Assembly: GCF_011193355.1 (NCBI RefSeq)
Contig: NZ_CP049780.1
Span: 857,280 to 921,279, forward strand
Direction: 5' to 3'
Source of the DNA: Streptomyces sp. JB150
GTDB taxonomy: Bacteria; Actinomycetota; Actinomycetes; Streptomycetales; Streptomycetaceae
DNA length: 64,000 nt
Within the stretch, counting starts at the first letter, position 1. Each line of letters begins with the position of its first letter. Below the pieces are notes generated by a model, which worked only from the letters and a program-made list of their open reading frames with translations, was not told the DNA's origin and made no database searches. Made by a program: the position numbers and the translations under genes. Positions 1-20,089 of this stretch are shown one piece after another.

Positions 1-423
1 GTAGATCTCGGGGTCGAACGGCACGGTGTAGCCGGTCTTCAGCGACGGGGGGACACAGCCGCCGCGCGTGTTCAGCCGGTCCAGGAGCTGCCACAGGAAC
101 CCGGCGACCACCGCCTCGCCCTCGCCGTGGTCGGGCGGCAGCAGCGGCACGCCGTCCTCGCCGGGCTCGGCGAACACCGCCTGCTTGCGCTCGTTGTGGA
201 AGGACATCAGCGGCATGACGAGGGCGGCGGTGGCGTTGCCGCCGAGGAAGCCGTAGCGCTCCACGAGGACGACCTCCGCGCCGGCCTCGGCCGCCGCGCA
301 GGCCGCCGCGGTGCCGGCCGGTCCTCCGCCCACGACCAGGACGTCCGTGCGACCGCCGTCGCGGGCGGGGCGCGGCGGCAGGGTGATGGTCCGGGACTGT
401 GCGGGTGGTTCCAGGATCGGCAT
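1..423 (-). CDS. FAD-dependent oxidoreductase, N-terminal part (runs off left edge)
   Basis: Only the first 141 codons lie in the window; the rest continues past base 1. The chosen ATG gives a short leader, then a Rossmann dinucleotide-binding motif VVGGGPAGTAAA at about residues 30-41. It is followed by ERYGFLGGNAT, a pattern typical of the PF12831 group of FAD-dependent oxidoreductases. The substrate cannot be deduced. It lies 122 nt downstream of the pyruvyl transferase gene on the same strand, so it is probably co-transcribed with it and part of the glycan cluster. The family and reading frame are clear; the role in the cluster is inference. Confidence 0.75.
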   Translation of the reverse strand, partial: MPILEPPAQSRTITLPPRPARDGGRTDVLVVGGGPAGTAAACAAAEAGAEVVLVERYGFLGGNATAALVMPLMSFHNERKQAVFAEPGEDGVPLLPPDHGEGEAVVAGFLWQLLDRLNTRGGCVPPSLKTGYTVPFDPEIY

Positions 424-545
424 CGCTTCTTCCCGTCGGCAGGTGGTTCCGCTGCGCCGGCGGCCCGGCGTCCGGCCGTCGGCGCGCGGCGGGTGCGGCG
501 GCGGACGTCGGGTCCCGGTGTGGACGTCAGGTCGCGGTGCGGACG

Positions 546-1763
546 TCAGGTTCCGGTACCCGGCCCGAGCAGCTGAAGGCCCGGCTCGGCGTCCGGGACG
601 GCCGGGGCGGCCACGTCGAGCGAGTCGAGCACCGCGCCGAGGCGCGTACACGTCTCGCGGGCGCGGGCCCGCAGCTGGCGCACGCGCCCCTCGAAGTCGC
701 CGCGCCGCTGCGGGAACTCGTCCCAGAGCCGGTCCACCTCGGCCAGCAGCAGCCCGGCCTGCTCACGGGCGACGCCGACGAGGGCGGGGGCGCCGAGGCG
801 GCGGGCGAAGTCGAACACCTTGCCGGAGTACGGCAGCGGCAGCACGGGCAGCCCGGAGAGCGCGGCGAAGATCAGGAAGTGCAGGCGCATCCCGACGACG
901 AGGTCGAGATGGCTCATGAAGCCGAGGACCTGGCCGGGACTGTAGACGCTGTGCAGGATGCGGCCGCGGTCCGGGGCGGTCATCCGGGAGAGCACGCCGT
1001 GGGCGTGGTGCACGTCCTGGCGTTCCATCGGGACGAAGACGACGTGGGCGTCGAGGCGGCGTACGAGGAAGTCGGCCACGTCGGCGAGGAGCGCGTGGTA
1101 GTCGCCCTCGTCGAGCTTCTCGGCGGCCCGGCCGGGTTCCCGCACCGACATGCCGACCAGCCGGCGGGCGTCGGCGGGGATGCCCTCCTGGCGCATCATC
1201 TGGTCGGTGAACGGCTCGGGCGGCAGCAGCAGCGCGGGGTCGGCGGTGACGATGATGTCCCGGTCGACTCCGGCCTCCTCCAGGACCAGGTGCGACTCCT
1301 CGTCGCGGACGACCACCTCGTCCATGGCGGACAGCACCGAGCGCACCGCCTCGCGGTCCTCCGCCTCGCGCAGCGGGCCCGCGCCGATGGCGTAGGCGAA
1401 GGTGCGCACGCCGCGCGCCTGGGCCGCGCCGACCACCCGGAGGTAACGGCGGGCCTCGCCGTCGTAGAGGATGCCGCCGCCGCCGACGACCAGCAGGTCG
1501 AGGCGGGAGACGACGTCGAGCACCTGCCGCTGCGGGACGCCCTCCCAGTCGACCACCTCGTCCAGGGTGGGGTGGTGGGCGCGCGTGTGCTCGGCGTTGC
1601 GGCTGAGGGCGATGAGCCGCGCGCCCGGGCGGTGGCCGCGCAAACAGCCGAGGACACAGCTGAGGATGGCCTCGTCGCCGAGGTTGAAGCCTCCGTAGGA
1701 ACCGAGCAGTCCGATGCGCGGACTCACTTCGGTGAGCAGGGGAGGCTGAGCGGTGGTGGTCAT
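546..1763 (-). CDS. polysaccharide pyruvyl transferase family protein
   Basis: This 405-aa protein matches the CsaB/PssM-type polysaccharide pyruvyl transferase family (PF04230), which puts pyruvate ketals from phosphoenolpyruvate onto sugars of extracellular or wall polymers. Visible marks are the N-terminal GLLGSYGGFNLGDEAIL segment, the glycine-rich LLVVGGGGILYDG loop and the C-terminal MRLHFLIFAALSG segment with the family's conserved MRLH. An open frame continues far upstream, but the ATG at 1763 begins just before the conserved domain and upstream codon choice degrades. The gene diverges from the epimerase operon across a 778-bp gap. Acceptor sugar unknown; pyruvylation of the cluster's glycan is inferred. 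Confidence 0.85.
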   Translation of the reverse strand: MTTTAQPPLLTEVSPRIGLLGSYGGFNLGDEAILSCVLGCLRGHRPGARLIALSRNAEHTRAHHPTLDEVVDWEGVPQRQVLDVVSRLDLLVVGGGGILYDGEARRYLRVVGAAQARGVRTFAYAIGAGPLREAEDREAVRSVLSAMDEVVVRDEESHLVLEEAGVDRDIIVTADPALLLPPEPFTDQMMRQEGIPADARRLVGMSVREPGRAAEKLDEGDYHALLADVADFLVRRLDAHVVFVPMERQDVHHAHGVLSRMTAPDRGRILHSVYSPGQVLGFMSHLDLVVGMRLHFLIFAALSGLPVLPLPYSGKVFDFARRLGAPALVGVAREQAGLLLAEVDRLWDEFPQRRGDFEGRVRQLRARARETCTRLGAVLDSLDVAAPAVPDAEPGLQLLGPGTGT

Positions 1764-2541: not shown

Positions 2542-3516
2542 ATGAGCACCCTTTCTTCCGGGACTTCTTCCCGGACCTGGCAGCACGCCGTGGTCACCGG
2601 CGGCGCCGGGTTCGTCGGCTCGCACCTGTGTGAGGCCCTGATGGCGTCGGGCGCCGCCGTCACCTGCGTGGACGACTTCAGCACCGGACGGCCTGAGAAC
2701 GTGACGCCGCTGCTCGACCGCCCCGGCTTCACCCTGGTGCAGGCGGACGTCGCCGAGGGCATCCCCGTGGACCGGCCGCCGGACCTGGTGCTCCACTTCG
2801 CCTCGCCCGCCTCCCCGGCCGACTATCTGCGTCTGCCCCTGCACACGATGGAGGCCGGCAGCCTGGGCACCCGGCACGCCCTGGAGCTGGCGCACCGCTC
2901 CCGCGCCCGGTTCGTGCTCGCCTCGACGTCCGAGGTCTACGGCGACCCGCAGCAGAACCCGCAGGACGAGCGGTACTGGGGTCATGTGAACCCGGTCGGC
3001 CCGCGCAGCGTCTACGACGAGGCCAAGCGCTTCGCCGAGGCGCTGACCACCGCGCACGCGGACAGCGAGGGCACCGACACCTGCATCGTGCGGCTGTTCA
3101 ACACCTACGGCCCCCGGATGCGCGGCCACGACGGCCGGGCGGTGCCGACGTTCGTGCGCCAGGCGCTGGACGGCGAACCCCTGACGGTGACCGGCGACGG
3201 CCGCCAGACCCGCTCCCTGTGCTACGTCGACGACACCGTGCGCGGCATCCTCGCCGCCGCGGCGCACGGGATGCGCGGTCCGGTGAACATCGGCAACCCG
3301 GCCGAGATCACCATGCTCGGCCTGGCCCGGCTGGTGATCGAGCTGACCGGGTCGGACTCCGAGATCCGCTTCATCGAGCGGCCCACCGACGATCCGGCCC
3401 TGCGCTGCCCGGACATCACCCTGGCCCGCGACAAGCTCGGCTGGGAACCGGAGGTGGACGCCGAGGAGGGGCTGCGCCGCACGATCGACTGGTTCCGCTC
3501 CGGCGCGCACCGCTGA
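2542..3516 (+). CDS. NAD-dependent epimerase/dehydratase, UDP-glucuronate decarboxylase-like
   Basis: This 324-aa extended short-chain dehydrogenase has an intact catalytic apparatus. The N-terminal VTGGAGFVGSHLCEAL binds NAD, STSEVYGDP supplies the Ser/Thr-Glu pair, and SVYDEAKRFAEAL contains the YxxxK motif. Together with the NTYGPRM and CYVDD signatures this is closest to UXS (UDP-xylose synthase) enzymes, but a related 4,6-dehydratase or 4-epimerase on another nucleotide sugar is possible. The ATG is preceded by GGAGGAGG-type bases (2530-2537), which fixes the start inside a longer open frame. It heads the plus-strand operon, and a degenerate paralogue lies at 19061-20089. Confidence 0.88.
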   Translation: MSTLSSGTSSRTWQHAVVTGGAGFVGSHLCEALMASGAAVTCVDDFSTGRPENVTPLLDRPGFTLVQADVAEGIPVDRPPDLVLHFASPASPADYLRLPLHTMEAGSLGTRHALELAHRSRARFVLASTSEVYGDPQQNPQDERYWGHVNPVGPRSVYDEAKRFAEALTTAHADSEGTDTCIVRLFNTYGPRMRGHDGRAVPTFVRQALDGEPLTVTGDGRQTRSLCYVDDTVRGILAAAAHGMRGPVNIGNPAEITMLGLARLVIELTGSDSEIRFIERPTDDPALRCPDITLARDKLGWEPEVDAEEGLRRTIDWFRSGAHR

Positions 3517-3565
3517 CCCCGCCGTCACAAGCCGCCCGCCCCTTCGCCGAAAGGCCTGGCCCTCC

Positions 3566-5227
3566 ATGCGCATCCTCGGAATCAACGCCCTTTTCCACGA
3601 CCCCGCCGCCGCTCTGGTGATCGACGGCCGTACCGTCGCCGCGGCCGAGGAGGAGCGGTTCTCCCGCCGCAAGCACGGCAAGCGGCCGCTGCCGTTCTCC
3701 GCCTGGGAGCTGCCGGAGAAGGCCGCCGCGTGGTGCCTGCGGCGGGCCGGTCTGCGCCCGCAGGACCTGGACGCCGTCGCCTACTCCTACGCCCCGTCGC
3801 TGGCCCGTCCCGCCGACGCGATGGGCCTGGACGACCCCTGGGACCACCTGCGGCAGACGTACGCCCGCGAGGCGCCGAACTTCCTCAAGGAGGTGCTGCC
3901 GGGCCTCGACCCGGACATCGTGCGCTTCGTGCCGCACCACATGGCGCACGCCGCGTCCGGCGCGTTCTGCGCGGACGGCGCCGAGGACTCCTCGGTGCTG
4001 GTCCTCGACGGCCGCGGCGAGCGCGCCTCGCACCTGGCCGCGCGCCGGGTCGGGGACAAGCTGGAGCCGCTGTACGCCCAGGACCTGCCGCACTCGCTCG
4101 GCCTGGTGTACGAGGAGCTGACCGCGCATCTGGGGTTCCTGCGCTCCTCGGACGAGTTCAAGGTGATGGCCCTCGCCTCGCACGGCACCCCGCGCATGCT
4201 GTCCGAGCTGCGCCGCTACGTGCACCCGACCGGCGACGGAGGGTTCCGGGCGACCGGGGTGCCCTGGCACGAGTTCTGCCCGCCGCGCGGCGCCGGGGAG
4301 CCGTGGACGCAGGCGCACGCGGACCTGGCGGCGAGTGCCCAGGCGGTGCTGGAGGAGACCCTGCTGGACCTGGTGCGCTGGCTGCACGGCCGGACCGGGC
4401 ACAGCGTGCTCACGCTCGCCGGCGGCGTCGCCCTGAACTGCGTAGCCAACTCGCGGATCGCCCGCGAGGGCCCGTTCTCCCGGGTGTGGGTGCAGCCCGC
4501 GGCCGGTGACGCGGGCACCGCGCTGGGCGGCGCGCTGCTGCTGGCCGCCGGGGAGGGTGACACGCCGGAGCCGATGACCGGCGCCGATCTGGGCCGGGAC
4601 TGGACGGACGCGGAGCTGGGCGCGTGGCTGAAGACCGCCGCCGTACCGTTCGAGCGGCCGCCGGACATCGCGCGGACAGTGGCGCGCACGCTCGCGGACA
4701 ACGGGATCGTCGCCTGGTTCCAGGGGCGTTCCGAGTACGGTCCGCGGGCGCTCGGCCACCGCTCGCTGCTGGCCCACCCGGGCCACGCGGGCAACCTCGA
4801 ACGCCTCAACGACGTCAAGGGGCGTGAGCAGTTCCGGCCGGTCGCGCCGATGGTGCTCGCCGACCGTGCCGCGGAGATCTTCGACGGGCCGCTGCCCAGC
4901 CCGTACATGCTGTTCGTGCACGACGTGGCCGAGGAGTGGAAGGACCGGATCCCCGCGGTCGTCCACGTGGACGGCACGGCCCGCATCCAGACCGTCGACC
5001 CGGCGCGCGAGCCCCTGGTCGCGCGGATGCTGGGCGAGTTCGAGCGGCTGACCGGGCTGCCCGTGGTGGTCAACACCAGCCTCAACACGGCGGGCCGGCC
5101 CATGGTGGACGACCCGCGCGACGCGCTCGAGTGCTTCGGCTCCTCACCGGTCGACCTGCTCGCCATCGGCCCGTACGCGATCCGGCGCGGCGACTTCTTC
5201 CGCGCCGGCGGCGACGGGAGGGCCTGA
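3566..5227 (+). CDS. carbamoyltransferase, NodU/CmcH family
   Basis: This 553-aa protein transfers carbamoyl from carbamoyl phosphate, through carbamoyl-adenylate, to a hydroxyl of a sugar or antibiotic. The N-terminal Kae1/actin-like half begins RILGINALFHDPAAAL, carries HHMAHAASGAF and has the phosphate-binding stretch LAGGVALNCVAN. The C-terminal domain contains WFQGRSEYGPRALGHRS and NTSLNTAGRPMVDDP. Length and domain order match the family. It follows the epimerase by 49 nt and its TGA overlaps the next ATG by 1 nt, so it belongs to the glycan operon. The acceptor is unknown; a carbamoylated sugar in the glycan is inferred. Confidence 0.92.
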   Translation: MRILGINALFHDPAAALVIDGRTVAAAEEERFSRRKHGKRPLPFSAWELPEKAAAWCLRRAGLRPQDLDAVAYSYAPSLARPADAMGLDDPWDHLRQTYAREAPNFLKEVLPGLDPDIVRFVPHHMAHAASGAFCADGAEDSSVLVLDGRGERASHLAARRVGDKLEPLYAQDLPHSLGLVYEELTAHLGFLRSSDEFKVMALASHGTPRMLSELRRYVHPTGDGGFRATGVPWHEFCPPRGAGEPWTQAHADLAASAQAVLEETLLDLVRWLHGRTGHSVLTLAGGVALNCVANSRIAREGPFSRVWVQPAAGDAGTALGGALLLAAGEGDTPEPMTGADLGRDWTDAELGAWLKTAAVPFERPPDIARTVARTLADNGIVAWFQGRSEYGPRALGHRSLLAHPGHAGNLERLNDVKGREQFRPVAPMVLADRAAEIFDGPLPSPYMLFVHDVAEEWKDRIPAVVHVDGTARIQTVDPAREPLVARMLGEFERLTGLPVVVNTSLNTAGRPMVDDPRDALECFGSSPVDLLAIGPYAIRRGDFFRAGGDGRA

Positions 5228-6282
5228 TGGGCGAGCCCGCGTACGCCGTGGTGATCCCCACCCTGGGCCGGCCCGGCCTGGGCGCCTGTCTGCGCGCCCT
5301 GGCCGTCGCCGAGGGGCCGCCGCCGCGGCGGGTCGTCCTGGTCGACGACCGGCCCGGCGCGAGGGGCGGGGCGTCACTGCTCACCGAGGTGCCCGAGTCG
5401 CTGCGGCCCCGCACGGCGGTCGTCCCGGGTGGCGCCCGCGGGCCCGCCGCGGCGCGCAACACCGGCTGGCGGGCGGCCGGTGCGGTGCCGTGGATCGTCT
5501 TCCTGGACGACGACGTGGTGCCCGGCCCGACCTGGGCCGCCGACCTCGCCCGGGACCTGGCCGCGGCGTCGGAGCGGACCGCCGCGGTGACCGCGCGCAT
5601 CGTGGTGCCGCTGCCGCGGGACCGGCGCCCCACCGACTGGGAGCGCAACACCGCCGGGCTCGCCACCGCCCGCTGGATCACCGCCGACATGGCGTACCGG
5701 CGTACGGCGCTGGAGGCCGCCGGCGGTTTCGACGAGCGGTTCCGGCGGGCGTTCCGGGAGGACGCGGACCTGGCGCTGCGGGTGACGGCCGCCGGGTGGT
5801 CAGTCACCGAGGGGTCCAGGACCACGGCCCATCCGGTGCGGCCCACCGACCGCTGGGTGTCGGTGCGGCTCCAGGCGGGCAACGCGGACGACGTCCTGAT
5901 GACCCGGCTGCACGGCCGCGACTGGTGGCGCCGGGCGGACGCGCCGAGGGGCCGCCTGCCCGTCCATGCCGCGGTGACCGCGGCCGCGGTGGCCGCCCTG
6001 TCCTGCGCGGCCCTGCGCCGGCCGCGGGGCGCCGGGCTGTGCGGGGCGCTGTGGCTCGCGGGGACGGCCGAGTTCGCGCTGGCCCGCATCCGCCCGGGCC
6101 CCCGGACCCGCGACGAGGTCGTCACCATGGCCCTGACCAGCCTCGCCATCCCGCCGGCCGCCGTGTGGCACTGGCTCCGGGGCCGGGTCGCGCACCGGGG
6201 AACCGCCCCGTTCGCCCCTTCCGGGACGGCGGGACCTCCTCGGGGGCGGCGGGAGCCCGCACCGGAACAGGTGGGCTCATGA
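5227..6282 (+). CDS. family 2 glycosyltransferase
   Basis: This 351-aa GT-A enzyme begins with the GT2 nucleotide-binding strand VVIPTLGRPGLG. It carries the metal-binding triplet in FLDDDVVPGP around residue 95-100 and an acidic FREDADLALRV motif near 180. The C-terminal part (about residues 240-300) is alanine/leucine-rich and may be membrane-associated. The ATG lies in TGATG, overlapping the carbamoyltransferase stop, and its own stop overlaps the phosphatase start by 4 nt, so translation is coupled. Donor and acceptor sugars cannot be read from sequence. Confidence 0.88.
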   Translation: MGEPAYAVVIPTLGRPGLGACLRALAVAEGPPPRRVVLVDDRPGARGGASLLTEVPESLRPRTAVVPGGARGPAAARNTGWRAAGAVPWIVFLDDDVVPGPTWAADLARDLAAASERTAAVTARIVVPLPRDRRPTDWERNTAGLATARWITADMAYRRTALEAAGGFDERFRRAFREDADLALRVTAAGWSVTEGSRTTAHPVRPTDRWVSVRLQAGNADDVLMTRLHGRDWWRRADAPRGRLPVHAAVTAAAVAALSCAALRRPRGAGLCGALWLAGTAEFALARIRPGPRTRDEVVTMALTSLAIPPAAVWHWLRGRVAHRGTAPFAPSGTAGPPRGRREPAPEQVGS

Positions 6283-7220
6283 GCACACGTCCCTGGATCT
6301 ACCCGGGCCCCGGCGAGCCCGCCGGCGACGGGCCCGAAGATGTCCTCGTCCGTGCGCGGGCCCGCGGCCGCGCGGAGTGGCCGGCCACCGGGCGCGGGGA
6401 GCGGCCGGCCACCGGGCGCCAGGGCCCGGTTGCCGCCGTCGGCCTCGGTGGCGGCCTCCCCTCCGCCGTTCTCTTCGACCGGGACGGGACGCTCGTCGTC
6501 GACGTGCCCTACAACGGCGATCCCGCGCGGGTCGTGCCGATGCCGACGGCGCGGGCGGCCGTCGAGGCCGTGCGGGCGCGGGGCGTCGCGGTGGGAGTGG
6601 TGAGCAATCAGTCGGGGGTGGCGCGCGGGCTGCTGACGCGGGCGCAGGTGGAGGCCGTGCAGCGCCGGGTCGAGGAACTGCTGGGCCCGTTCGGGGTGTG
6701 GGCGGTGTGCCCGCACGGCCCGGCGGACGGCTGCGGCTGCCGCAAGCCCGCGCCGGGACTGGTCCTGGCGGCGTGCGCGCGCCTCGACGCGGACCCGGCG
6801 CGCGCCGTGGTCATCGGTGACATCGCCGCCGACCTGGGCGCGGCGCGCGCGGCCGGGGCGCGCGGCATCCTCGTGCCGACCCCGGCGACCCGCCCGGAGG
6901 AGACGGCCGCCGCCGATCGGACCGCGCCGGATCTGCTGTCGGCGGTACGGCTGGCCCTGGGCGCGGGGCGGCCGGAGTCCGCCGGGTCCGCGAGGCCGCC
7001 GGAGGCGGTGGGGGCGGAGCGCGCGGCGGTGCCGGGTGCCGGCGAGGCGCCCCGGGGTGCTCCCGGCTCGCCGTCCGGCGACGGCACCCCGCCCTCCACC
7101 GACCCAGCAGCCACCACCGGTTCGCCCTCCACCGACCCAGCAGCCACCACCGGCACCCCCCACCCCGGCGCCCCGCCCGCCGCCTCCCCCGGCTCCGTCC
7201 GAACGGCGGCCCCCTCGTGA
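6279..7220 (+). CDS. gmhB: GmhB-like heptose bisphosphate phosphatase (HAD family)
   Basis: Likely removes the 7-phosphate of D-glycero-D-manno-heptose 1,7-bisphosphate. The HAD nucleophile motif FDRDGTL is at about residues 66-72. The zinc-binding CPHGPADGCGCRKP follows the GmhB pattern CPH-x-P...CxCRKP, and VIGDIAADL supplies the terminal acidic motif. The 313-aa protein is longer than the usual ~180-190 aa: about 60 unconserved residues precede the HAD domain, and a Pro/Ser/Ala-rich tail of about 80 residues follows, partly made by a duplicated 33-bp DNA segment. ATG overlaps the GT2 stop by 4 nt. Neighbouring gmhA and hldE support the heptose assignment. Confidence 0.85.
   Translation: MSTRPWIYPGPGEPAGDGPEDVLVRARARGRAEWPATGRGERPATGRQGPVAAVGLGGGLPSAVLFDRDGTLVVDVPYNGDPARVVPMPTARAAVEAVRARGVAVGVVSNQSGVARGLLTRAQVEAVQRRVEELLGPFGVWAVCPHGPADGCGCRKPAPGLVLAACARLDADPARAVVIGDIAADLGAARAAGARGILVPTPATRPEETAAADRTAPDLLSAVRLALGAGRPESAGSARPPEAVGAERAAVPGAGEAPRGAPGSPSGDGTPPSTDPAATTGSPSTDPAATTGTPHPGAPPAASPGSVRTAAPS
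7088..7153. repeat. tandem 33-bp duplication in the GmhB-like tail
   Basis: The block CCCTCCACCGACCCAGCAGC plus CACCACCGG occurs twice in direct orientation with a 33-bp period. It encodes the peptide PSTDPAATTG twice. It lies in the low-complexity C-terminal extension, outside the catalytic HAD domain. Confidence 0.75.
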
Positions 7221-8350
7221 GCGCGGCCCCCCGGACCCTCGTCGTCCGTCTCGACAGCGCCGGAGACGTACTGCTCGCGGGGCCCGCGGTACGGGCCGTG
7301 GCCGCCGGGTCGGCGTACACGACGCTGCTGTGCGGGCCGCAGGGCGAGCAGGCGGGGCGGATGCTGCCGGGCGTGGACGAGGTGCTGGTGCACGACGCCC
7401 CGTGGGTCGGTCTGGAGCCCGCCCCGGTGTCGCGGGAGGAGACGCGGGGGCTGCTGGAGACGCTGGCGGAGCGGCGCTTCGACCGGGCGCTGGTCCTGGT
7501 GTCGTACCACCAGAGCCCGCTGCCCGCGGCCCTGCTGCTGAAGCTGGCGGGCGTCGGCTGGACGGCGGCCGACTGCGAGGACTATCCGGGCGCGCTGCTC
7601 GACCTGCGCCACCGGCGGCGTCCGCGCCGGCACGAGGCGCGGGCGGCGCTGGACCTCGCGGAGGCCGCCGGGTTCGCGCTGCCGCCGGGCGACGACGGGA
7701 CGCTGCGGGTGCGGACGCCGCCGGACACCACGCGTCTGACCGGCCCGGAGCCGTATGTCGTGCTGCATCCGGGTGCCGCCGTGCCGGCCCGCGCCTGGAG
7801 TCCCGGCCGGGCCGCGCGGGCCGCGGCGGCGCTGGCCGCGGCGGGCCACCGGGTGGTGGTCACCGGCGGACGCGGGGAGCGCGAGCTGACCGCGCGGGTG
7901 GCCGGGCGGCACGCCCTGGACCTGGGCGGGGCCACCGATCTGCGGGAGCTGGCCGGGGTGCTGGCACGGGCCCGGGTGGCGGTGACCGGGAACACCGGTC
8001 CGGCGCATCTGGCCGCGGCGGTCGGCACTCCGGTGGTGTCGCTGTTCGCGCCCGTGGTGCCGGCCGAGCGGTGGCGGCCGTACGGCGTGCCGTCGGTGCT
8101 GCTGGGCGACCAGCGGGCCGCGTGTGCCGGGACGCGGGCCCGCCGCTGTCCCACGCCGGGCCATCCGTGCCTGGACGGTGTCGGTGACGCGGAGGTGGTG
8201 GCCGCGGTGGCGGCGCTGAGCGGCGGCCGCGGCGGCAACGGCCGACGGGCCGACCGACCGGTCGGGATGAATAACTTGACGGAGACAAGAAAGACGGCAA
8301 ATGAGACAACTGTGACAAAAGGGGCAGAAGAGCGAGGAGTGGCCTGGTGA
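7217..8350 (+). CDS. family 9 glycosyltransferase (heptosyltransferase-like)
   Basis: This 377-aa protein belongs to GT9, the family of LPS heptosyltransferases using ADP-heptose. The N-terminal VVRLDSAGDVLLAGPAV contains the GD(V)L motif with the catalytic Asp, and TGNTGPAHLAAAVGTP is the family's C-terminal donor-binding motif. The GTG start overlaps the phosphatase stop by 4 nt. The last ~27 codons (from about 8268) are AT-rich with codons rare in Streptomyces, so the present C-terminus may be an unusual extension. The fit with the neighbouring ADP-heptose genes supports a heptosyl donor, but this is inference. Confidence 0.87.
   Translation: MSAAPRTLVVRLDSAGDVLLAGPAVRAVAAGSAYTTLLCGPQGEQAGRMLPGVDEVLVHDAPWVGLEPAPVSREETRGLLETLAERRFDRALVLVSYHQSPLPAALLLKLAGVGWTAADCEDYPGALLDLRHRRRPRRHEARAALDLAEAAGFALPPGDDGTLRVRTPPDTTRLTGPEPYVVLHPGAAVPARAWSPGRAARAAAALAAAGHRVVVTGGRGERELTARVAGRHALDLGGATDLRELAGVLARARVAVTGNTGPAHLAAAVGTPVVSLFAPVVPAERWRPYGVPSVLLGDQRAACAGTRARRCPTPGHPCLDGVGDAEVVAAVAALSGGRGGNGRRADRPVGMNNLTETRKTANETTVTKGAEERGVAW
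8262..8346 (+). promoter_or_regulatory. AT-rich island, possible internal promoter before the GT4-like gene
   Basis: About 80 bp is strikingly AT-rich against its surroundings and contains TTGACG at 8276-8281. A good -10 hexamer at the proper spacing is not evident (AAATGA near 8299). A GAGGAG ribosome-binding site sits just before the GTG at 8347. It may be an internal promoter or leader that also happens to stay open as the GT9 C-terminus. Confidence 0.35.
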
Positions 8351-9312
8351 ACATCCTGCTGTGGCATGTGCACGGCTCCTGGACGACCGCGTTCGTGCAG
8401 GGCCCGCACACCTACCTCGTCCCCCTGCTCCCCGACCGCGGCCCGGACGGCCGCGGTCGCGCCCGCACGTTCCCCTGGCCGGCCTCGGTGCGGGAGCTGA
8501 CCCCGGACGAGCTGCGCGAGGCGGAGGTCGACCTGGTCGTCCTCCAGCGGCCGCACGAGATGGAGCTGGCCGAACGCTGGCTGGGCGGCCGCCGCCCCGG
8601 CCGCGACGTGCCCGCCGTCTACCTGGAGCACAACGCCCCGGACGGCGACGTCCCGGACACCCGGCACCCGTTCGCCGACCGCGACGACCTGACGCTCGTC
8701 CACGTCACCCACTTCAACCGCCTGTTCTGGGACAACGGCGGCACCCGCACGGAGGTCGTCGAGCACGGCATCGTCGACCCGGGCCACCGGTACACCGGCC
8801 GGCTCGCCCGCGCGGCCGTCGTCGTCAACGAGCCCGTACGGCGCGGCCGGTACACGGGTACGGACCTGCTGCCCGCGCTCGCCGAGGCCGCGCCGCTGGA
8901 CGTGTTCGGCATGCGCACCGAGGGCCTGGCCGGCCGGCTGGGGCTGCCCGAGGAGCGGTGCCGGTCCGCCGACCTGCCGCAGGGCGAACTGCACGGGGCG
9001 CTGGCCGAACGGCGGCTGTATCTGCACCCGGTGCGCTGGACCTCGCTCGGCCTGTCCCTGCTGGAGGCCATGCACCTGGGCATGCCGGTGGTCGCGCTGG
9101 CCACCACGGAGGCCGTGGAGGCCGTCCCGCCCGGCGCGGGTGTGCTGTCCACCCGCCCCGAGGTGCTGGCCGAGGCCGCCCGCCGCTATCTGGCGGATCC
9201 GCAGGCGGCGGCCGAGGACGGGGCGCGGGCCCGCCAGGCGGCCCTCGCACGGTACGGGCTCAAGCGCTTCCTGAACGACTGGGAGCGCCTGATCACGGAG
9301 GTGTGCTCATGA
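8347..9312 (+). CDS. GT4-like glycosyltransferase
   Basis: This 321-aa protein has a glycosyltransferase GT-B fold appearance. The N-terminal strand NILLWHVHGSW is followed by a short acceptor-side domain, and the C-terminal SLGLSLLEAMHLGMPVVAL resembles the E-x7-E donor-binding segment of GT4 enzymes. A GTG start with the GCGAGGAG Shine-Dalgarno bases overlaps the GT9 stop by 4 nt. The same Streptomyces clusters commonly pair such a short transferase with the GT4 that follows. Substrate unknown. Confidence 0.78.
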   Translation: MNILLWHVHGSWTTAFVQGPHTYLVPLLPDRGPDGRGRARTFPWPASVRELTPDELREAEVDLVVLQRPHEMELAERWLGGRRPGRDVPAVYLEHNAPDGDVPDTRHPFADRDDLTLVHVTHFNRLFWDNGGTRTEVVEHGIVDPGHRYTGRLARAAVVVNEPVRRGRYTGTDLLPALAEAAPLDVFGMRTEGLAGRLGLPEERCRSADLPQGELHGALAERRLYLHPVRWTSLGLSLLEAMHLGMPVVALATTEAVEAVPPGAGVLSTRPEVLAEAARRYLADPQAAAEDGARARQAALARYGLKRFLNDWERLITEVCS

Positions 9313-10580: not shown

Positions 10581-10582
10581 GG

Positions 10583-10647
10583 CAGCGTCCGAGGGAGCAC
10601 CGACCGTCCCCCAGGCACAGCGTCCGAGGGAGCACCGACCGTCCCCC
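10583..10647. repeat. perfect 30-bp direct repeat after the GT4 stop
   Basis: Two identical 30-bp copies (10583-10612 and 10618-10647) begin CAGCGTCCGAGGGAGCACCG and are separated by 5 nt, a 35-bp period. They fill most of the gap between the GT4 stop and gmhA. The gap interrupts an otherwise tightly coupled operon, so the repeat may be an inserted duplication or a regulatory element. Confidence 0.8.
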
Positions 10648-10667
10648 CGTCCCCGCCGCGAGCCCCG

Positions 10668-12760: not shown

Positions 12761-13824
12761 GCGCGACCCCGCGGCCGCCCCGGCGTACCGCCCGCCCCCG
12801 CGTGCTGGTGCTGCGCGCCCTCGGGCTGGGCGACCTGCTGACCGCCGTACCCGCCCTGCGGGCGCTGCGCCGCCATCTGCCGGGCCACGAACTGGTGCTG
12901 GCCGCGCCCGAGCGGCTGGCCGGGGCGGCCGCCGCGACCGGTGTCCTGGACCGGCTGCTGCCCGCCGAGGCTCCCGGCCGCGCCGTGCCCACCACGCTGG
13001 CCTGGCCGGGACCCGGCCCCGACCTCGCCGTCGACCTGCACGGCAACGGCCCGCCCAGCCACCTCCTGCTCCAGCGGCTGCGGCCCGGCCGGCTCCTGGC
13101 CTACGCCCACCCCGGCACCCCCGGCGTCCCGGGCCCGGTGTGGCGGGAGGACGAACACGAGCGGGACCGCTGGTGCCGGCTGCTGACCTGGTACGGCATC
13201 CCGGCCGACCCCGCCGACCTGTCGATCCCGGTGCCCGCGACGCCCTCCCCCGCGCCCGGCGCGGTCGTCGTCCACCCCGGCGCGGACGCCGCCGCCCGCT
13301 GCTGGCCCGCGGAGCGCTTCGCGGCCGTGGCACGGGCGCTGCGCGCGCAGGGCCACCGGGTGGTGGTGACCGCCGGGGCCGGCGAGACCGCCCTCGCCGG
13401 ATGTGTCGCCGCGCGCGCCGGACTGCCCCCGGACCACGTCGTCGGCGGGACCGCCGACGTGCCCTTCGACCGGCTCGCCGCGCTGGTCGCGGGCGCCCGC
13501 TGCGTGGTGGTCGGCGACACGGGCCTCGCCCACCTGGCCACCGCCCTGGGCACCCCGTCCGTCGTGCTCTTCGGCCCGGTCTCCCCCCGCCTGTGGGGCC
13601 CGCCGCCCGATCCCCGCCACCACGTCCTCTGGCACCCCGGCGACGACCCGTCCCCGCGCCCCGGCGACGCACACGGCCGGATGCCGGACGAGCGGCTGCT
13701 GCGCATCACGGTGGACGAGGTCCTGGCAGCCGTGCGGAACCTCCCGGAACCGCTCCCCGCCCGCACCCCGGCACGGCACGGCACGGCCGCTCCCCCACCG
13801 GTGAACGTGCCGGCCCGCCGCTGA
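12757..13824 (+). CDS. family 9 glycosyltransferase (heptosyltransferase-like)
   Basis: Second intact GT9 of the operon, 355 aa. The N-terminal VLVLRALGLGDLLTAVPAL carries the GDLL motif with the catalytic Asp. GAVVVHPGADAAARCW is the central loop of the family and VVGDTGLAHLATALGTP the donor-binding motif, both closer to classical heptosyltransferases than the 7217-8350 paralogue. GTG overlaps the hldE stop by 4 nt, which ties it to ADP-heptose supply. It ends the plus-strand operon. The acceptor is unknown. Confidence 0.9.
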   Translation: MSATPRPPRRTARPRVLVLRALGLGDLLTAVPALRALRRHLPGHELVLAAPERLAGAAAATGVLDRLLPAEAPGRAVPTTLAWPGPGPDLAVDLHGNGPPSHLLLQRLRPGRLLAYAHPGTPGVPGPVWREDEHERDRWCRLLTWYGIPADPADLSIPVPATPSPAPGAVVVHPGADAAARCWPAERFAAVARALRAQGHRVVVTAGAGETALAGCVAARAGLPPDHVVGGTADVPFDRLAALVAGARCVVVGDTGLAHLATALGTPSVVLFGPVSPRLWGPPPDPRHHVLWHPGDDPSPRPGDAHGRMPDERLLRITVDEVLAAVRNLPEPLPARTPARHGTAAPPPVNVPARR

Positions 13825-13867: not shown

Positions 13868-15164
13868 TCAGGCCGCCGCCTCCACCTCCGGCGTGCGCTC
13901 CAGGGTGCGCAGCGGGGTGACCGCGGGCCGGGTGCGGCGGCGGTGGAGGAGGTGGCCGGTGGTGATGGCGGCGGCGATGACCAGGCCGCCGGCGACGAGG
14001 GCGCCGCGGGCGCCGGCGCGTTCCATCAGCAGGCCGAGCGCGGGCGGACCCGCCAGACCCCAGCCGGTGCTGATGCTGCCCCACACGCCGAGGACACGGC
14101 CGCGCAGCCGGGCGGGCGGGTCGGTCCGCAGGACGGTCGTGCCCGCGGTGTCGGAGACGGACTCCACGACGGCCATGGGCAGCACCAGCACCAGCAGCAC
14201 GGCGAGCGACGGCGACAGCCCGGCGAGCACCTGGAGCAGCCCGCCGGTCGCGGCGAGCGCGCCGACGAGCCGCGCGGACGGCCCGCGCAGCCGCGCGCCG
14301 AGCACCGCGCCGAGGATGCCGCCGACGGCGAGCACGGTGGAGACGGTGGCGAAGGACCCGGCACCGCCCGCGAGGGGGCCGGTGACGAGGACCGCGAGGG
14401 TGAGGCCGTAGTGGCGGCCGAAGACCGCGCTGACGCCGGTGATCCCGGCGAGCGCGACCAGCCGGGGCCGCTTCGCGAAGAACGCCAGGCCCTCGCGGAC
14501 GGTCATGTCCCCGCTCGCGCGCCCCGTGCCCTTCGAAGGCGGGGCGCCGCGCCGGGCGGGAATCTTCACACCGGCAGTGGCAGCGGCCGCTCCGGTGATC
14601 GGCCGCAGGAACGGGGATCACGGAGGCGACGAAGAGGACCGACAGCCCGTTCGCGGCGTAGGCGGCGCCCGTGCCGAGGAAGCCGGCGGCGATCCCCGCG
14701 AAGGCGATGCCGGCGAGCCGCCCGGCGCTGTGCACGAGGGAGCCGACCCCGATGGCGGAGGGCACGTCCTGCGGCCGGACCAGATCGTTGCCCAGCAGGG
14801 CGCAGGCCGGTCCGTCGACGGTGGCGATGGTGCCGGTCACGGCGGCCAGCGCGAGCAGCACGGGCAGGTCGAGCCGGCCGGTCGCGACGAGCGCCGCCGT
14901 GACCAGGGCGACCGTGCCGAGCAGGGCCTGGCTGACCATGGGGGTCCGCTTCCGCGGCCGGCGGTCGACGGCGGCGCCGCCGGCCAGGCTGATCAGCGGC
15001 GCGGGTGCGGCCTGCACGGAGATGGACAGGCCGGTCGCGGCGGCGGACCCGGTGATCTGGAGGACCAGCAGGTTCTGCACGGTGAGCTGCATCCAGGTGC
15101 CCGCGTTGGACACGAAGTCGGCCGGCGACCACCAGCGCATGCTGCGGTAGCGGAGCGCCGCCAC
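13868..15164 (-). pseudogene. MFS transporter broken by a frameshift
   Basis: Two adjacent minus-strand frames together make one major facilitator of about 430 residues. The N-terminal frame (GTG at 15164) carries FVSNAGTWMQLTVQNLL and the first transmembrane helices up to FVASVIP. Homology then continues in the next frame (PFLRPITGAAAATAGVKIP, DMTVREGLAFFAKRPR) to the stop at 13868. The switch falls at a G4 run, 14613-14616; three Gs would restore one frame. A second possible frame change lies near 15175, where a TGA blocks a longer N-terminus. It could be a real loss or a sequencing error. It is convergent with the glycan operon, whose exporter it might have been. Confidence 0.75.
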
Positions 15165-15595
15165 GGCGAGCGGGACTCACCGGGAGCGGGCGGGGGACGG
15201 CCTCGGTGTCGGGCCCGGGGGAGGAATCAGGCACAGCGGTACTCGGCAGGGGTGTCCGGAGGCTCCGGCGGATCGGTGAATCCACGGGAGTCGGGAACAC
15301 CGGCTGCGCTGCGCGGTCGCTCCTCGGGATGTCTCAGGCGCCGCCCATCGTGGCAGACGGGGTCCCCGGGTCCGGACCGGGCGCCCTCGCCGCGGACGCG
15401 CCCCGACGGGCAAGTCAGGGGTCGGCCGCCGCACTTGGCCCACCCTGTGCACTCGCTCACAAGCAACTGCCGGGCGCCCGTTGCGGCACTCGGGTGTACT
15501 CCTCGCCGCCCGCGTTACGGCGCCCCCCGCACGGGCACCCGGAAGGCTGGGCGGGCCCGTCCGGGAACCGCCCGAGTCGCGATGGAGGGAGTGAC
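15165..15595. other. intergenic region upstream of the hemerythrin gene
   Basis: About 430 bp between the divergent MFS remnant and the hemerythrin gene. An open frame in the minus direction (from 15300) might be a former N-terminal extension of the transporter in another frame. No convincing promoter pair, repeat or RNA structure was recognised. Confidence 0.5.
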
Positions 15596-16278: not shown

Positions 16279-16362
16279 CGCGTGTCCACGGCGTCATCCG
16301 GCTCGGCCGCCGGCCTCATCCGACCGACGTACGTACCGACCGCCGCACCGGCAACCCGCGGC

Positions 16363-17277
16363 TCAGCCGACGTACCGCCGCGCCGGCGACGACCGCCGTG
16401 CCTGCTCCAGGGCCACCAGCCGGGCCTCCAGGTCGGGCGGGACGGGATCGCGCTGCCGCAGCACCCAGGGCAGCCCGGCCGCGGCGTGGGCGAAGGCCCG
16501 CGCGGTGGCCCGGTCGTGCGGCACCGTGCGCGCCAGGTACCAGGTGCGGCGCACCGCCGACAGCCAGGGGCGGCGCAGCCAGGTGAACCAGAGGGTGTTG
16601 CGCAGGCCGAGGACGCGGCGGTGGGTGCTGTCGCGGACCGGGGAGGCGGCGTGGTGGATGGTGATCTCGGGGATGTAGCAGAGCCAGTGGCCGCGCCGCA
16701 GCAGGTCGGTGGCGAGCAGTTCCTCCTCGCCGCCGAGCCACAGTCCGGGGTGGAAGCCACCGGCCGCGCGGAAGACGTCGGCGCGCATCACGGTGGCGGC
16801 GGCGAGGAAGGAGCCGAGGGCGGGGCCGGGCAGCCAGTCGGGGCCGGTGAGCGGCGAGTCGCGCAGTTCGGCGACGACCGGGTCCTCCTCGCCGGACGGT
16901 TCGACGACGATCCGCGCGGTCACGGCGGCGACCCGCGGGTGGGCGTCCAGCACGTCCGCCGCGCGGCGCAGGGAGCCGGGTTCCCACCAGGTGTCATCGT
17001 CGCAGAAGGCCACGTAGGGGGTGCGGACGTGGCGGACGGCGAGGTTGCGGCCGACGGCCCCGAGGTTGCGTCCGGGGCGCAGCAGCAGGACCTCGGGGTG
17101 GTCGCGGGCGACGGCCTCCGCGGTGCCGTCGCTCGAGCCGTTGTCGGTGACGATCACCTGGGGCCGCTCCGGCAGGTCGCGCAGGGTGCGCAGGGTGCGC
17201 AGCAGCTCGGGGCGGCGGTCACGGGTGATCACGACGACCGTCGTACGGCCGTCCGGGCGGGCCGTGTCGTGGGTCAC
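16363..17277 (-). CDS. family 2 glycosyltransferase
   Basis: This 304-aa GT2 enzyme has the N-terminal VVVITRDRRPELLRTL, the NGSSDGT loop, the metal-binding FCDDDTWWEPG motif near residue 95, and a GGEEELLATDL acceptor-side acidic motif. It is last in the minus-strand operon. GTG overlaps the upstream GT2 stop by 4 nt. It is clearly paralogous to its neighbour at 17274-18185, sharing the GRNLGAVGRNLAVRH-type segment and overall layout. Sugar specificity unknown. Confidence 0.88.
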   Translation of the reverse strand: MTHDTARPDGRTTVVVITRDRRPELLRTLRTLRDLPERPQVIVTDNGSSDGTAEAVARDHPEVLLLRPGRNLGAVGRNLAVRHVRTPYVAFCDDDTWWEPGSLRRAADVLDAHPRVAAVTARIVVEPSGEEDPVVAELRDSPLTGPDWLPGPALGSFLAAATVMRADVFRAAGGFHPGLWLGGEEELLATDLLRRGHWLCYIPEITIHHAASPVRDSTHRRVLGLRNTLWFTWLRRPWLSAVRRTWYLARTVPHDRATARAFAHAAAGLPWVLRQRDPVPPDLEARLVALEQARRSSPARRYVG

Positions 17278-18185
17278 GGCTGCCCTCCCTCCAGCAGTCG
17301 GGCGGCTTGTTCGACGCGTGCGGGCAGCGGTCTGCGGTGGCCGAGGGCGGCGGGCAGCCGGGCGAGCGTGCCGCGCAGTGCGGCGCCCGCCGCGGGTTCG
17401 CCCCGGACGGCCTCGGCGGCGAGGCGGGCGGTGGCGCGCAGGGCGACCGGGGCGGGGCGCCGCAGCCAGGCGGTGAGCACCGCGTTGCGGCGCTGGGCGG
17501 CGGAGCGGCCGGGCCGTTCGGCGGGCTCGGGGTGGTGCAGGGCGGTCACCGAGGGCACGTAGCACACGCCCCAGCCGCGGGCGGCGAGGTCGTAGGCGAG
17601 CAGGGTCTCCTCGCCGCCGAAGAACAGCACGGGGTGGTAGCCGCCCGCGTCGAGGAAGGCCCGCCGGCGCACCACGGACGCGCAGGCGAGGAAGCCGAGC
17701 ACGGGGGTGCCGGGGAGACCGGGGTCGCGGGGCAGCGGGGAGGTGGCGAGGACGGCGTTGAGCGGGTCCTCGGCGGCGCCGGGGCCGACGAGGGTGCGCG
17801 CGGCGAGCAGTCCGAGGCGCGGGTGGGCGTCGAGGACGTCGGCGGCGGTGGTGAGCGCGCCGGGCGCCCACCAGGAGTCGTCGTCGCTGAACGCGACGTA
17901 GGGGGTGGTGGCGTGCCGTACGGCGAGGTTGCGGCCGAGGGCGCCGGTGTTGCGGCCGGGGGTGAGGACGCGGGCGCCGACGGGGTGGTCGCGGACGGCG
18001 GCGGCGGTGGCGTCGGCGGAGTCGTTGTCGACGACGATGACGGGGGGCCGCTCGGGCAGTTCGGCCAGCCGGTCCAGGGTGCGCAGGACGCTCGCGCGGC
18101 GGTTGCGGGTGATCATGGCGACGGTGATCCGGCCGGCCGCGGGCGGGCGGGAGCGGGCGGCGTGGGGCAGGGCCTGCGGGTGCAC
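17274..18185 (-). CDS. family 2 glycosyltransferase
   Basis: This 303-aa GT2 enzyme is paralogous to the following gene. It has VAMITRNRRASVLRTL at the N-terminus, DNDSADATAAA, the GRNTGALGRNLAVRH segment, the metal-binding FSDDDSWWAPG motif and GGEETLLAYDL. The GTG at 18185 lies 3 nt after the stop of the upstream GT9-like gene, so the four genes from 20089 down form one operon. The pair of similar GT2 enzymes suggests two consecutive or alternative transfers to related acceptors; this is inference. Confidence 0.86.
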   Translation of the reverse strand: MHPQALPHAARSRPPAAGRITVAMITRNRRASVLRTLDRLAELPERPPVIVVDNDSADATAAAVRDHPVGARVLTPGRNTGALGRNLAVRHATTPYVAFSDDDSWWAPGALTTAADVLDAHPRLGLLAARTLVGPGAAEDPLNAVLATSPLPRDPGLPGTPVLGFLACASVVRRRAFLDAGGYHPVLFFGGEETLLAYDLAARGWGVCYVPSVTALHHPEPAERPGRSAAQRRNAVLTAWLRRPAPVALRATARLAAEAVRGEPAAGAALRGTLARLPAALGHRRPLPARVEQAARLLEGGQP

Positions 18186-18188
18186 GCC

Positions 18189-19064
18189 TCATGTCCTTTC
18201 GTCGAGCAGCCGGTGCACGGCGCCGGCCACGTCCCGGGCGGTGCACGCGTCCGGGGCGAGCAGCACGCTGGGCACGCCGTCGGGGCGGCGCGGCGCGCCG
18301 GGCGGGACGAGCGAGACGACCGGGGTGCCGGTGGCGGCGGCGAGATGGGCGGGTCCGGGCACGCCGGTGACGACGGCGTCGGCGGCGCGCAGCACCCCGG
18401 CGAACCGCCGGGGGTCGGTACGGCCGCCGAGGTCCACGGCGATGTCCGCGCTGACGTGCCGGGTCAGCGCGGTCTCCTCCGGTCCGCCGGTGACGACGAC
18501 GCGGTGCCCGGCGTCGGCCAGCGCGCTGACCGCGGCCGCGCAGTGGTCGGGGTCCCAGGCGTGGCCGGGCGGCCCGGCGCCGGGGTGGACGACGACGTAG
18601 GGGCCGGCGCCGGTGAGCTGGGCGGTGTCGGGCGGGGGTACGACCCGCAGCCGTCCGTCGTCCCCGGCGCGCGGGCGGAAGCCGAGCGCGGCGGCGGTGC
18701 CGAGGACCGCGCGGGGGCGGGTGTCGCCGCAGGCGGCGACCCGGTGCACGCGCGCCCGGAGCAGCAGTTGCTCGGCGGGGCCGGGGCTGTGTCCGCCGGG
18801 GGCGAGGACGAGTGCCACGTCGTAGGCCTCGTCCCGCAGCCGCCGCACCAGCGGGTCGTCGTCCGTCCGCCCGTCCTCGGGGGTTCGCGGCGGCGGTTCC
18901 CATACGACGACGTCGTCGACGTGGGGCAGCAGCCGGGCGGCGGGTTCACCGTCGGGTCCGCACAGCACCGTGACGGGGTGCGCGCGGGTGGCGACCGCGC
19001 GGACGGCGGGCCCGGCGAGAAGTGCGCCGGTGAATCCGTCGAGGGGGACGACCAGGGCCTTCAC
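18189..19064 (-). CDS. GT9-like protein with degenerate catalytic motifs
   Basis: This 291-aa protein aligns by eye with the GT9 at 7217-8350: both share LLAGPAVRAVA near the N-terminus, GHRVVVTGG, and GPAHLAAATGTPVVSL. However the GD(V)L segment is LDGFTGALL here (LDSAGDVLL in the paralogue), so the catalytic Asp is missing. The TGNTGPAHLA motif reads TGVPGPAHLA. It is also shorter by about 85 residues. It may be an inactive, regulatory or altered-specificity transferase. GTG overlaps the upstream epimerase-like stop by 4 nt; that protein is degenerate too. Confidence 0.8.
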   Translation of the reverse strand: MKALVVPLDGFTGALLAGPAVRAVATRAHPVTVLCGPDGEPAARLLPHVDDVVVWEPPPRTPEDGRTDDDPLVRRLRDEAYDVALVLAPGGHSPGPAEQLLLRARVHRVAACGDTRPRAVLGTAAALGFRPRAGDDGRLRVVPPPDTAQLTGAGPYVVVHPGAGPPGHAWDPDHCAAAVSALADAGHRVVVTGGPEETALTRHVSADIAVDLGGRTDPRRFAGVLRAADAVVTGVPGPAHLAAATGTPVVSLVPPGAPRRPDGVPSVLLAPDACTARDVAGAVHRLLDERT

Positions 19065-20089
19065 CGCTCGACCACCTCCGGCTCGCAGGCACCCGGCGCG
19101 CCGTGCTCGGCGACGTGGGCGATGGTCCGCTTGAAGCCCTCCTCCCAGGGCACCGCGGGTGCCCATCCGTACAGCTCGCGGGCGAAGGTGGTGTCGGGCC
19201 TGCGCCGGGCGGGGCCGTGCGCGCGGCCGGGCCGATACTCCAGGCGGGAGGGGGATCCGGTCAGGTGGATCACCCGGCGGGCGATCTCCTCGACGGTGAC
19301 CTCGTCGTCGCCGCCGATGTTCACGGGCCGAACGGCGCGGCTGGCGGCGACCCGGAGCACGCCCTCGACGACGTCGTCCACGTAGGCGAGCGACCGGGTC
19401 TGGCTGCCGTCGCCGTCGACGGTGAGCGGGGCTCCGGTGAGCGCCTGCCGGATGAAGGTGGGCAGTGCCTGGCGGCCGTCCGCCCGCATCCGGGGGCCAT
19501 AGGTGTCGAACAGGCGGACGATCCCGGCGTCGGTGCCGCGGACGGTGGCGCAGGCGGTGGTCAGCGCCTCGGCGAACCGCTTGCCCTCGTCGTGGGCGCT
19601 GCGCGGCCCGACGGGGTCGACCTGCCCCCAGCAGTCCTCGCGCTGCGGGTGTGCCGCCGGGTCGCCGTAGACGTGGCAGGCGGAGGCCAGCAGGAAGCGG
19701 GCGCCGTCGCGCTCGGCGACGGCGAGGGCGTTGCGGGTGCCGGGGCCGGCGGCGTCCAGCGCGGCCAGCCGGCAGCCGAGGCAGTCGGCGGGCGAGGCGG
19801 GGCCGGCGAAGTGCAGGACGAGGTCGTAGGGGCCGGTGAGCGCGTCCGGGCAGCCGGGGGCGCTCACGTCCCGCTGCAGGAACCGGAAGCCGGGGCGCGC
19901 GGTCAGCGGGCGGATGTTGTCGAGGGAGCCGGACGACAGGTCGTCCAGGCAGTCGACCTCCGCTCCCGCGTCGATCAGACGTTCGCACAGGTGGGAGCCC
20001 AGGAACCCGGCGCCGCCGGTGACCAGGGCCCGCTTCCAGGCGGGCCGGGACATCGGCAGCGGTATCGCGGAGAACGCCATCGGCGTCAT
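19061..20089 (-). CDS. NAD-dependent epimerase-like protein with altered active site
   Basis: This 342-aa extended SDR is a close paralogue of the UXS-like protein at 2542-3516 and keeps the NAD motif VTGGAGFLGSHLCERL. The catalytic positions differ: STSEVYGDP becomes SACHVYGDP, and VYDEAKRFAEAL becomes AHDEGKRFAEAL. Thus the YxxxK Tyr is His and the Ser/Thr-Glu pair is lost. NTYGPRM is DTYGPRM. The frame is intact with normal codon use, so it is not a simple pseudogene. The ATG at 20089 has GGAAGGAGG placed 8 nt upstream. It is first gene of the minus-strand transferase operon. Function uncertain: binding protein, subunit, or changed chemistry. Confidence 0.85.
   Translation of the reverse strand: MTPMAFSAIPLPMSRPAWKRALVTGGAGFLGSHLCERLIDAGAEVDCLDDLSSGSLDNIRPLTARPGFRFLQRDVSAPGCPDALTGPYDLVLHFAGPASPADCLGCRLAALDAAGPGTRNALAVAERDGARFLLASACHVYGDPAAHPQREDCWGQVDPVGPRSAHDEGKRFAEALTTACATVRGTDAGIVRLFDTYGPRMRADGRQALPTFIRQALTGAPLTVDGDGSQTRSLAYVDDVVEGVLRVAASRAVRPVNIGGDDEVTVEEIARRVIHLTGSPSRLEYRPGRAHGPARRRPDTTFARELYGWAPAVPWEEGFKRTIAHVAEHGAPGACEPEVVER

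Follow-up and report, generated by a model that had tools for sequence, protein, structure and literature searches.

A variant cwg-type operon in Streptomyces sp. JB150 with predicted heptose, xylose and carbamoyl chemistry

What would a monoderm Streptomyces build with a set of ADP-heptose enzymes held in common with the lipopolysaccharide (LPS) inner core? The question is raised by ten plus-strand genes in a 64,000-nucleotide stretch of Streptomyces sp. JB150 (contig NZ_CP049780.1, positions 857,280 to 921,279; hereafter the window), which an earlier note, made from the sequence alone, had assigned to a heptose-containing surface or secreted glycan. We find that these genes are a form of the known Streptomyces cwg ('cell wall glycan') operon, the chemistry of which is unsolved, and that the window is a variant of it by its lineage, by a missing sigma-E promoter and by a hybrid inverted block, A'E'K'L'. 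The operon probably builds an envelope-bound oligosaccharide carrying D,D-heptose, xylose and a carbamoyl group. The picture of a multi-transferase envelope locus with heptose and carbamoyl genes in a Gram-positive is supported, while the identity of the operon had been missed.

A form of the cwg operon

The window genes were called and scanned against Pfam and NCBIfam profiles. The scans covered 20 proteins in window positions 1–22844. Sixteen genes were called in the adjoining 20 kb upstream, and ten of them were scanned too; their products include a GH43 hydrolase, chaperones and oxidoreductases. The calls and profiles confirm the gene set named in the earlier note (GmhA, HldE, a GmhB-like phosphatase, GT9 enzymes, a carbamoyltransferase, GT2 and GT4 transferases, a short-chain dehydrogenase and a pyruvyl transferase), laid out as follows:

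546–1763, minus strand: polysaccharide pyruvyl transferase, CsaB-like, divergent from the operon (PF04230, 136 bits; TIGR03609)
2542–3516, plus strand: cwgA orthologue, predicted UDP-xylose synthase (UXS; PDB matches, catalytic residues; start codon at 2542)
3566–5227, plus strand: cwgB orthologue, CmcH/NodU-type O-carbamoyltransferase (PF02543 and PF16861 over cut-off)
5227–6282, plus strand: cwgC orthologue, GT2 glycosyltransferase (PF00535; operon position)
6279–7220, plus strand: cwgD orthologue, GmhB-like HAD-IIIA phosphatase (PRK08942, HAD-IIIA models, PDB)
7217–8350, plus strand: cwgE orthologue, putative GT9 heptosyltransferase (PF01075, 76 bits; 'GD' aspartate kept)
8347–9312, plus strand: cwgF orthologue, GT4-like glycosyltransferase (PF00534/PF13692)
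9309–10580, plus strand: cwgG orthologue, MshA-like GT4 (TIGR03449, 228 bits against a cut-off of 462.5; PDB)
10728–11357, plus strand: cwgH orthologue, predicted GmhA sedoheptulose-7-phosphate isomerase (TIGR00441, PDB)
11354–12760, plus strand: cwgI orthologue, predicted HldE heptose-7-phosphate kinase/heptose-1-phosphate adenylyltransferase (TIGR02199, TIGR02198)
12757–13824, plus strand: cwgJ orthologue, putative GT9 heptosyltransferase (PF01075, 81 bits; 'GD' aspartate present)
16363–17277, minus strand: L', cwgL-type GT2, foreign-lineage copy (PF00535; identity to third-type operons L169, L170 and L171)
17274–18185, minus strand: K', cwgK-type GT2, foreign-lineage copy (PF00535; identity to the same three operons)
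18189–19064, minus strand: E', degenerate GT9, conserved Asp lost (alignment, tree, omega)
19061–20179, minus strand: A', degenerate UXS, active-site Glu lost (alignment, trees, omega)

The ten plus-strand genes span 2542–13824, from the short-chain dehydrogenase gene to the second GT9 gene. The first two are spaced by 49 bp, and the eight junctions from the carbamoyltransferase gene to the last GT9 gene comprise six 4-bp overlaps, one 1-bp overlap and a 147-bp gap before gmhA; the earlier description as a coupled operon is confirmed. The count of two intact GT9 enzymes was likewise correct. CwgE and CwgJ both combine a PF01075 match with an N-terminal 'GD' aspartate, which from WaaC we take to be catalytic, and the third GT9, E', is over the PF01075 cut-off yet lacks it. 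These three are the only PF01075 matches in the 7.32-Mb genome.

SCO6179–6190 of S. coelicolor is described as a putative cell wall glycan operon and a sigma-E target, a designation that citing papers credit to Hong et al. 2002; the twelve genes are vancomycin-induced and partly sigma-E-dependent, and their promoter sequence is printed (PMC6767563). The comparison was made with relatives' loci (numbered L) through this promoter, which we searched in those 63, out of 80, that have a strong CwgA match. Ahead of the UXS gene, L087 (S. tendae) and L073 (S. flaveolus) each carry it with one mismatch in 29 positions, L078 with two and S. coelicoflavus (L074) with three, and the divergent sco6178 promoter occupies the opposite strand of the same gap with two to five mismatches. 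Exactly twelve genes, cwgA–L, follow the promoter in L087 and L073: UXS, carbamoyltransferase, GT2, GmhB-like, GT9, GT4-like, GT4, GmhA, HldE, GT9, GT2 and GT2. Published labels for cwgE (sco6183, putative heptosyl transferase; PMC5882110), cwgH (phosphoheptose isomerase) and cwgI (bifunctional; both PMC5839063) coincide with the matching window gene positions. The labels in the right places and the promoter preceding the same twelve genes together establish the match, and rule out a wholly new cluster.

Window and S. coelicolor-type relatives have the A–J order in common, with the same predicted activities for E, H and I. The window nevertheless belongs to a separate lineage, its type of HldE being about 60% identical to that of S. 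coelicolor-type operons, and has no recognisable sigma-E promoter. Its cwgA–J are colinear, whereas the cwgK/L-type genes are confined to the inverted, other-lineage block, so the full twelve-gene run found in L073, L087, L169, L170 and L171 is absent. At the sco6178 position, divergent from cwg in S. tendae, the gene L087:427–1209 (minus strand) encodes a lipoprotein-like signal at its start, judged by eye; sco6178 itself is a putative deacetylase, also listed as a sigma-E target in S. coelicolor (PMC6767563).

Predicted sugars and product

The HldE adenylyltransferase domain scores above the equivalog cut-off of TIGR02199 (188 against 181.5 bits). Of the 15 PDB matches of GmhA, 13 are phosphoheptose isomerases and two are DiaA. 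The GmhB-like protein has a GmhB as its top PDB match (1.4e-19) and is over cut-off for the broader HAD-IIIA and histidinol-phosphatase-domain models; it also bears a Pro/Ala/Ser-rich low-complexity tail that by eye is about 95 residues long and has no Pfam match. No HldD 6-epimerase is over cut-off in the whole genome (best 100.8 against 274.6 bits), and D,D-heptose is predicted on this ground. Isomerase, bifunctional kinase/adenylyltransferase, phosphatase and GT9 transferases are thus held in common with the ADP-heptose pathway of the LPS inner core (WaaC/WaaF, HldD), but the host is monoderm and has no such epimerase over cut-off, and none of the proteins scanned belongs to lipid A or Kdo synthesis. 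Gram-positive S-layer glycans with GDP- or ADP-heptose offer a precedent for heptose in such surface glycans. The window differs from them in its carbamoyl and xylose genes, and no S-layer gene occurs among the proteins scanned.

Xylose is predicted from CwgA. Its best PDB matches are four UXS1 entries (2e-97 to 2e-95), with the first non-UXS entry at 2e-41, and it retains the full Thr-Ser-Glu, Tyr and Lys set listed for human UXS1 (Thr118, Ser119, Glu120, Tyr147 and Lys151; PMC12820599). The protein had been called a UXS-like epimerase; the likeness holds, and catalytic residues and PDB matches point to a UDP-xylose synthase in place of an epimerase. HldD and 4,6-dehydratase were rejected as identities for 2542–3516, UXS scoring far better. 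The chromosome encodes a UDP-glucose dehydrogenase at 3.085 Mb, some 8 kb away from five LCP-ligase matches. In L060, L138, L140 and L141 a member of the UDP-glucose-dehydrogenase cluster is found close to the operon itself (L140 by Pfam, the others by blastp cluster).

The closest solved relatives of CwgB are the antibiotic O-carbamoyltransferases novobiocin carbamoyltransferase, TobZ and GdmN. CwgF has no PDB relative at 0.001 (best 0.03). CwgG matches 6kih (2e-64) and then 3c48 (1e-49), which we take to be MshA; its nearest NCBIfam model is also MshA, with the cut-off not reached, and an inositol-type acceptor for this GT4 is speculation from that resemblance. HldE, GmhA, GT9-like and carbamoyltransferase genes also occur in specialised-metabolite clusters, and together with the antibiotic substrates of CwgB's relatives this would fit an operon yielding a diffusible heptose- and carbamoyl-bearing metabolite, as with septacidin, hygromycin B or the bleomycin sugars. 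We consider such a product unlikely: the operon has five transferases and the block adds to them, no polyketide synthase, nonribosomal peptide synthetase or aminocyclitol family appears among the 30 proteins scanned (most neighbouring genes in relatives being unannotated), the gene order is conserved outside the genus, and the S. coelicolor counterpart responds to vancomycin, partly through sigma-E (PMC6767563).

The divergent pyruvyl transferase had been counted as part of the system. The gene is present, but a pyruvylated product is weakly supported, and we regard its membership as doubtful. The protein is CsaB-like at 172.5 bits, below the equivalog cut-off of TIGR03609 (213.1), and its homologue adjoins the operon only in L016 and L019 of the 80 relatives' loci, many of which have too little upstream DNA. 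A distinct, distant PF04230 pyruvyl-transferase-like gene lies on the operon's other side in 6 of 30 gene-called relatives' loci (L087:15438–16397, minus strand, and L059, L064, L073, L124 and L138; Pfam-checked in L087 and L124), so that pyruvylation as such is possible. That gene and the adjacency in the window, L016 and L019 would favour an exopolysaccharide or surface glycan additionally pyruvylated by 546–1763. Against this, no match to 546–1763 stands beside window-type operons with more than 3 kb upstream (e.g. L025–L031, L035 and L037–L039) and no polymerase was found among the proteins scanned, leaving this fuller reading improbable.

For an envelope-bound oligosaccharide, the sequence shows the supply enzymes and the transferase families, and from these we infer the order of steps, chemistry, acceptor, export and anchoring as follows. 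GmhA would convert sedoheptulose-7-phosphate to D-glycero-D-manno-heptose-7-phosphate, from which phosphorylation by HldE, dephosphorylation by the GmhB-like protein and adenylyl transfer, again by HldE, would give ADP-D,D-heptose. CwgA would form UDP-xylose from UDP-glucuronate, the dehydrogenase for which is encoded elsewhere. The two GT9 enzymes would attach heptose, the GT2 and GT4 enzymes xylose and common sugars, and CwgB the carbamoyl group. The product would be made in the cytosol, and unlinked housekeeping machinery (a flippase, perhaps LCP ligases) would export and anchor it. By the Kyte-Doolittle scale, none of the cluster enzymes contains a 19-residue segment that exceeds 1.8, and, as had been remarked before, no polymerase, flippase or lipid-linked initiator is visible, here among 20 proteins scanned in the window and 10 upstream of it, so that the hallmarks of Wzx/Wzy-dependent systems are lacking there. 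The transferases lack membrane spans and the locus brings no initiator, which suggests that the product is a short, defined oligosaccharide whose lipid or wall carrier is shared. Elsewhere the chromosome has eight LCP matches, two Wzy_C matches and the UDP-glucose dehydrogenase; five LCP-ligase matches and that dehydrogenase fall within about 17 kb (G000:C1:3068409–3085620), which is probably this genome's wall glycopolymer attachment locus.

Several observations weigh against a heptose glycan of the envelope. The HldE kinase domain (TIGR02198, 116 against 345 bits), GmhA (156 against 209) and the GmhB-like protein (PRK08942, 106.8 against 178) are strong matches but all fall below their equivalog cut-offs, and SCO6182 (cwgD), a GmhB-like phosphatase by sequence here, is printed as a 'putative dehydratase' (PMC5839063); together these make the exact heptose a tentative assignment. 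GmhA and HldE might act on another sugar phosphate and the glycan contain no heptose, which we judge quite unlikely given the adenylyltransferase domain above its equivalog cut-off and the co-occurrence of the three supply enzymes with GT9 enzymes in most loci examined. Reported Streptomyces wall polymers are a Kdn/galactose teichulosonic acid and a poly(diglycosyl 1-phosphate), and the word 'heptose' is absent from the main text of that report (PMC11481543); wall heptose in Streptomyces is likewise absent from titles and abstract openings among the literature matches listed (15 of 125). As the reported polymers name no heptose, the product may be minor, lipid-bound or outside the wall. No export or anchoring gene was found in the cluster.

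Regulation adds to these points. A position weight matrix was built from 49 of 91 published sigma-E promoters, the cwg promoter included (training median 15.6, lowest tenth 12.6). Upstream of the window's cwgA it finds no recognisable sigma-E promoter; the score of 3.4 (shuffle p 0.57) is like that of shuffled sequence. None of 18 window-type loci has a strong site, the best reaching 11.4 (L028, shuffle p 0.02), and both third-type loci scored are borderline at 12.4. Loci classed as S. coelicolor-type are divided, with a strong site (at least 15.8) in 10 of 19. A matrix without the two cwg-region promoters gave the same outcome for the six sites rescored, window included. Since nine S. coelicolor-type loci and all 18 window-type loci scored lack a strong site, sigma-E control is not transferable to the window, where promoter scoring rules it out by sequence; an undetected or different promoter is possible.

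The inverted block

Read in transcription order, the block (16363–20179) begins with the UXS gene A' and the GT9 gene E' and ends with the GT2 genes K' and L'. Three operons of a third type, L169, L170 and L171, hold all twelve cwg genes in order, L171 with two stops in the aligned gmhB segment. K' is 73% identical to its counterpart in each, and L' is 82, 78 and 80% identical to their respective last genes. In a GT9 tree of 45 rows, the E' clade (7 rows, support 100/99) falls within the intact third-type GT9s (13 rows, 100/100) and apart from the window's own cwgE, and in a UXS tree with third-type rows (39 rows) the A' clade (8 rows, 98/97) lies inside the third type (11 rows, 100/100). The trees and the complete third-type operons indicate that the block is left over from a second operon of the cwg kind that belonged to a different lineage, present through transfer or as an ancestral second copy. 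Local duplication was ruled out for E' and A', since each groups with the third Streptomyces lineage and not with the window's own copies. Between operon and block, a major facilitator superfamily transporter gene (13868–15500, minus strand) is interrupted in the window, with pieces in two frames, and has long open copies in L016 and L025.

Both redundant enzymes have lost active-site residues. The Glu of Thr-Ser-Glu is missing from all nine readable A' copies (L175 is unreadable) and kept in all 63 CwgA copies. At the UXS catalytic set the window's A' has Ala, Cys, His, His and Lys, with Thr replaced by Ala and Tyr by His, and FDTYG where CwgA has FNTYG. The column of the conserved GT9 Asp holds Gly in six of seven readable E' copies and Glu in the seventh (L016; L176 is unreadable), whereas all 77 readable cwgE copies (L048 is cut) and all 18 distant GT9 copies have Asp there. 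In DNA of more than 70% G+C, missing stop codons by themselves say little, and selection was measured as omega (Nei-Gojobori, window against L016, with 95% bootstrap intervals). Omega is 0.12 (0.07–0.18) for CwgA and 0.33 (0.23–0.44) for A', 0.19 (0.13–0.28) for CwgE and 0.53 (0.37–0.72) for E', and 0.36 (0.24–0.51) and 0.22 (0.13–0.36) for K' and L'. A' and E' are therefore relaxed relative to their intact counterparts and still under purifying selection.

From these losses A' and E' are probable pseudoenzymes, and K' and L' probably take the place of cwgK and cwgL, which the operon lacks. Against relaxed selection on A', omega is equally high in K' and reaches 0.32–0.39 for the operon GT2 in two other pairs, which makes the value of A' unexceptional. 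The nine A' copies retain the Tyr in six cases and the Lys in seven, so that another short-chain dehydrogenase activity is possible. The retained residues and the omega of K' weaken a further proposal, which we hold to be doubtful: that A' and E' are more than decaying copies and serve the active CwgA and CwgE as partner or regulatory subunits, in a phylum-wide pathway for a carbamoylated D,D-heptose/xylose envelope glycan analogous to the LPS inner core.

Spread and meaning

The earlier note had proposed a synteny search across Streptomyces, and the operon order does recur. In Streptomycetaceae, 58 loci reach 9.9 kb or more upstream of hldE, and 43 of these carry the nine genes cwgA–I in order, which excludes chance assembly; the other 15 vary, several without gmhB and the first GT9 within reach. 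A hand count of the 295 Streptomyces genomes gives 108 with an HldE match (best E at most 1e-40), own included, or 107 without G069, whose HldE is only 40% identical. Four genomes hold two copies, with identities to the query of 82 and 62% (G124), 62 and 62% (G195), 82 and 57% (G211) and 80 and 61% (G254), and probably two cwg-type operons each.

Across the phylum, 44 of 396 genomes have an HldE match: the own genome, four other Streptomyces and 39 others, 30 of which belong to another class by kinship label. We compared 20 of these 39 loci, mostly those with the strongest HldE matches. Twelve, all of another class, share the identical order carbamoyltransferase, GT2, GmhB, GT9, GT4-like, GT4, GmhA and HldE; of the rest, L130 is cut by a contig end, L132, L134 and L139 lack some genes, and L128, L140, L141 and L143 are rearranged. 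The heptose/carbamoyl core is thus wider than Streptomyces. Only two of the loci, L140 and L141, have a UXS gene within the stretch, and xylose therefore seems to have been added to this wider core. Thirteen of the 20 loci place a short-chain dehydrogenase (a broad cluster; one Pfam-checked) between hldE and the second GT9 gene (e.g. L127:10615–11307), a position at which none was seen in the gene-called Streptomyces operons; it is possibly a heptose-modifying enzyme.

While the kind of operon was already known, the UXS and xylose prediction, the wider heptose/carbamoyl core and the second-operon remnant are new. Among the literature matches listed, whose coverage omits most subscription journals, none described the pseudoenzyme pair, predicted xylose or reported the wider core, nor was there anything joining Streptomyces, ADP-heptose, phosphoheptose isomerase and cell wall, or heptosyltransferase with carbamoyltransferase. 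The cwg functions are still 'putative' in the papers cited here, and the sequence now predicts D-glycero-D-manno-heptose, xylose and an O-carbamoyl group. The hybrid locus suggests an exchange of parts, in which a second operon shrank to a handful of genes and those of its enzymes that had become redundant lost active-site residues, and a core that reaches beyond Streptomyces makes the predicted chemistry testable in several genera.

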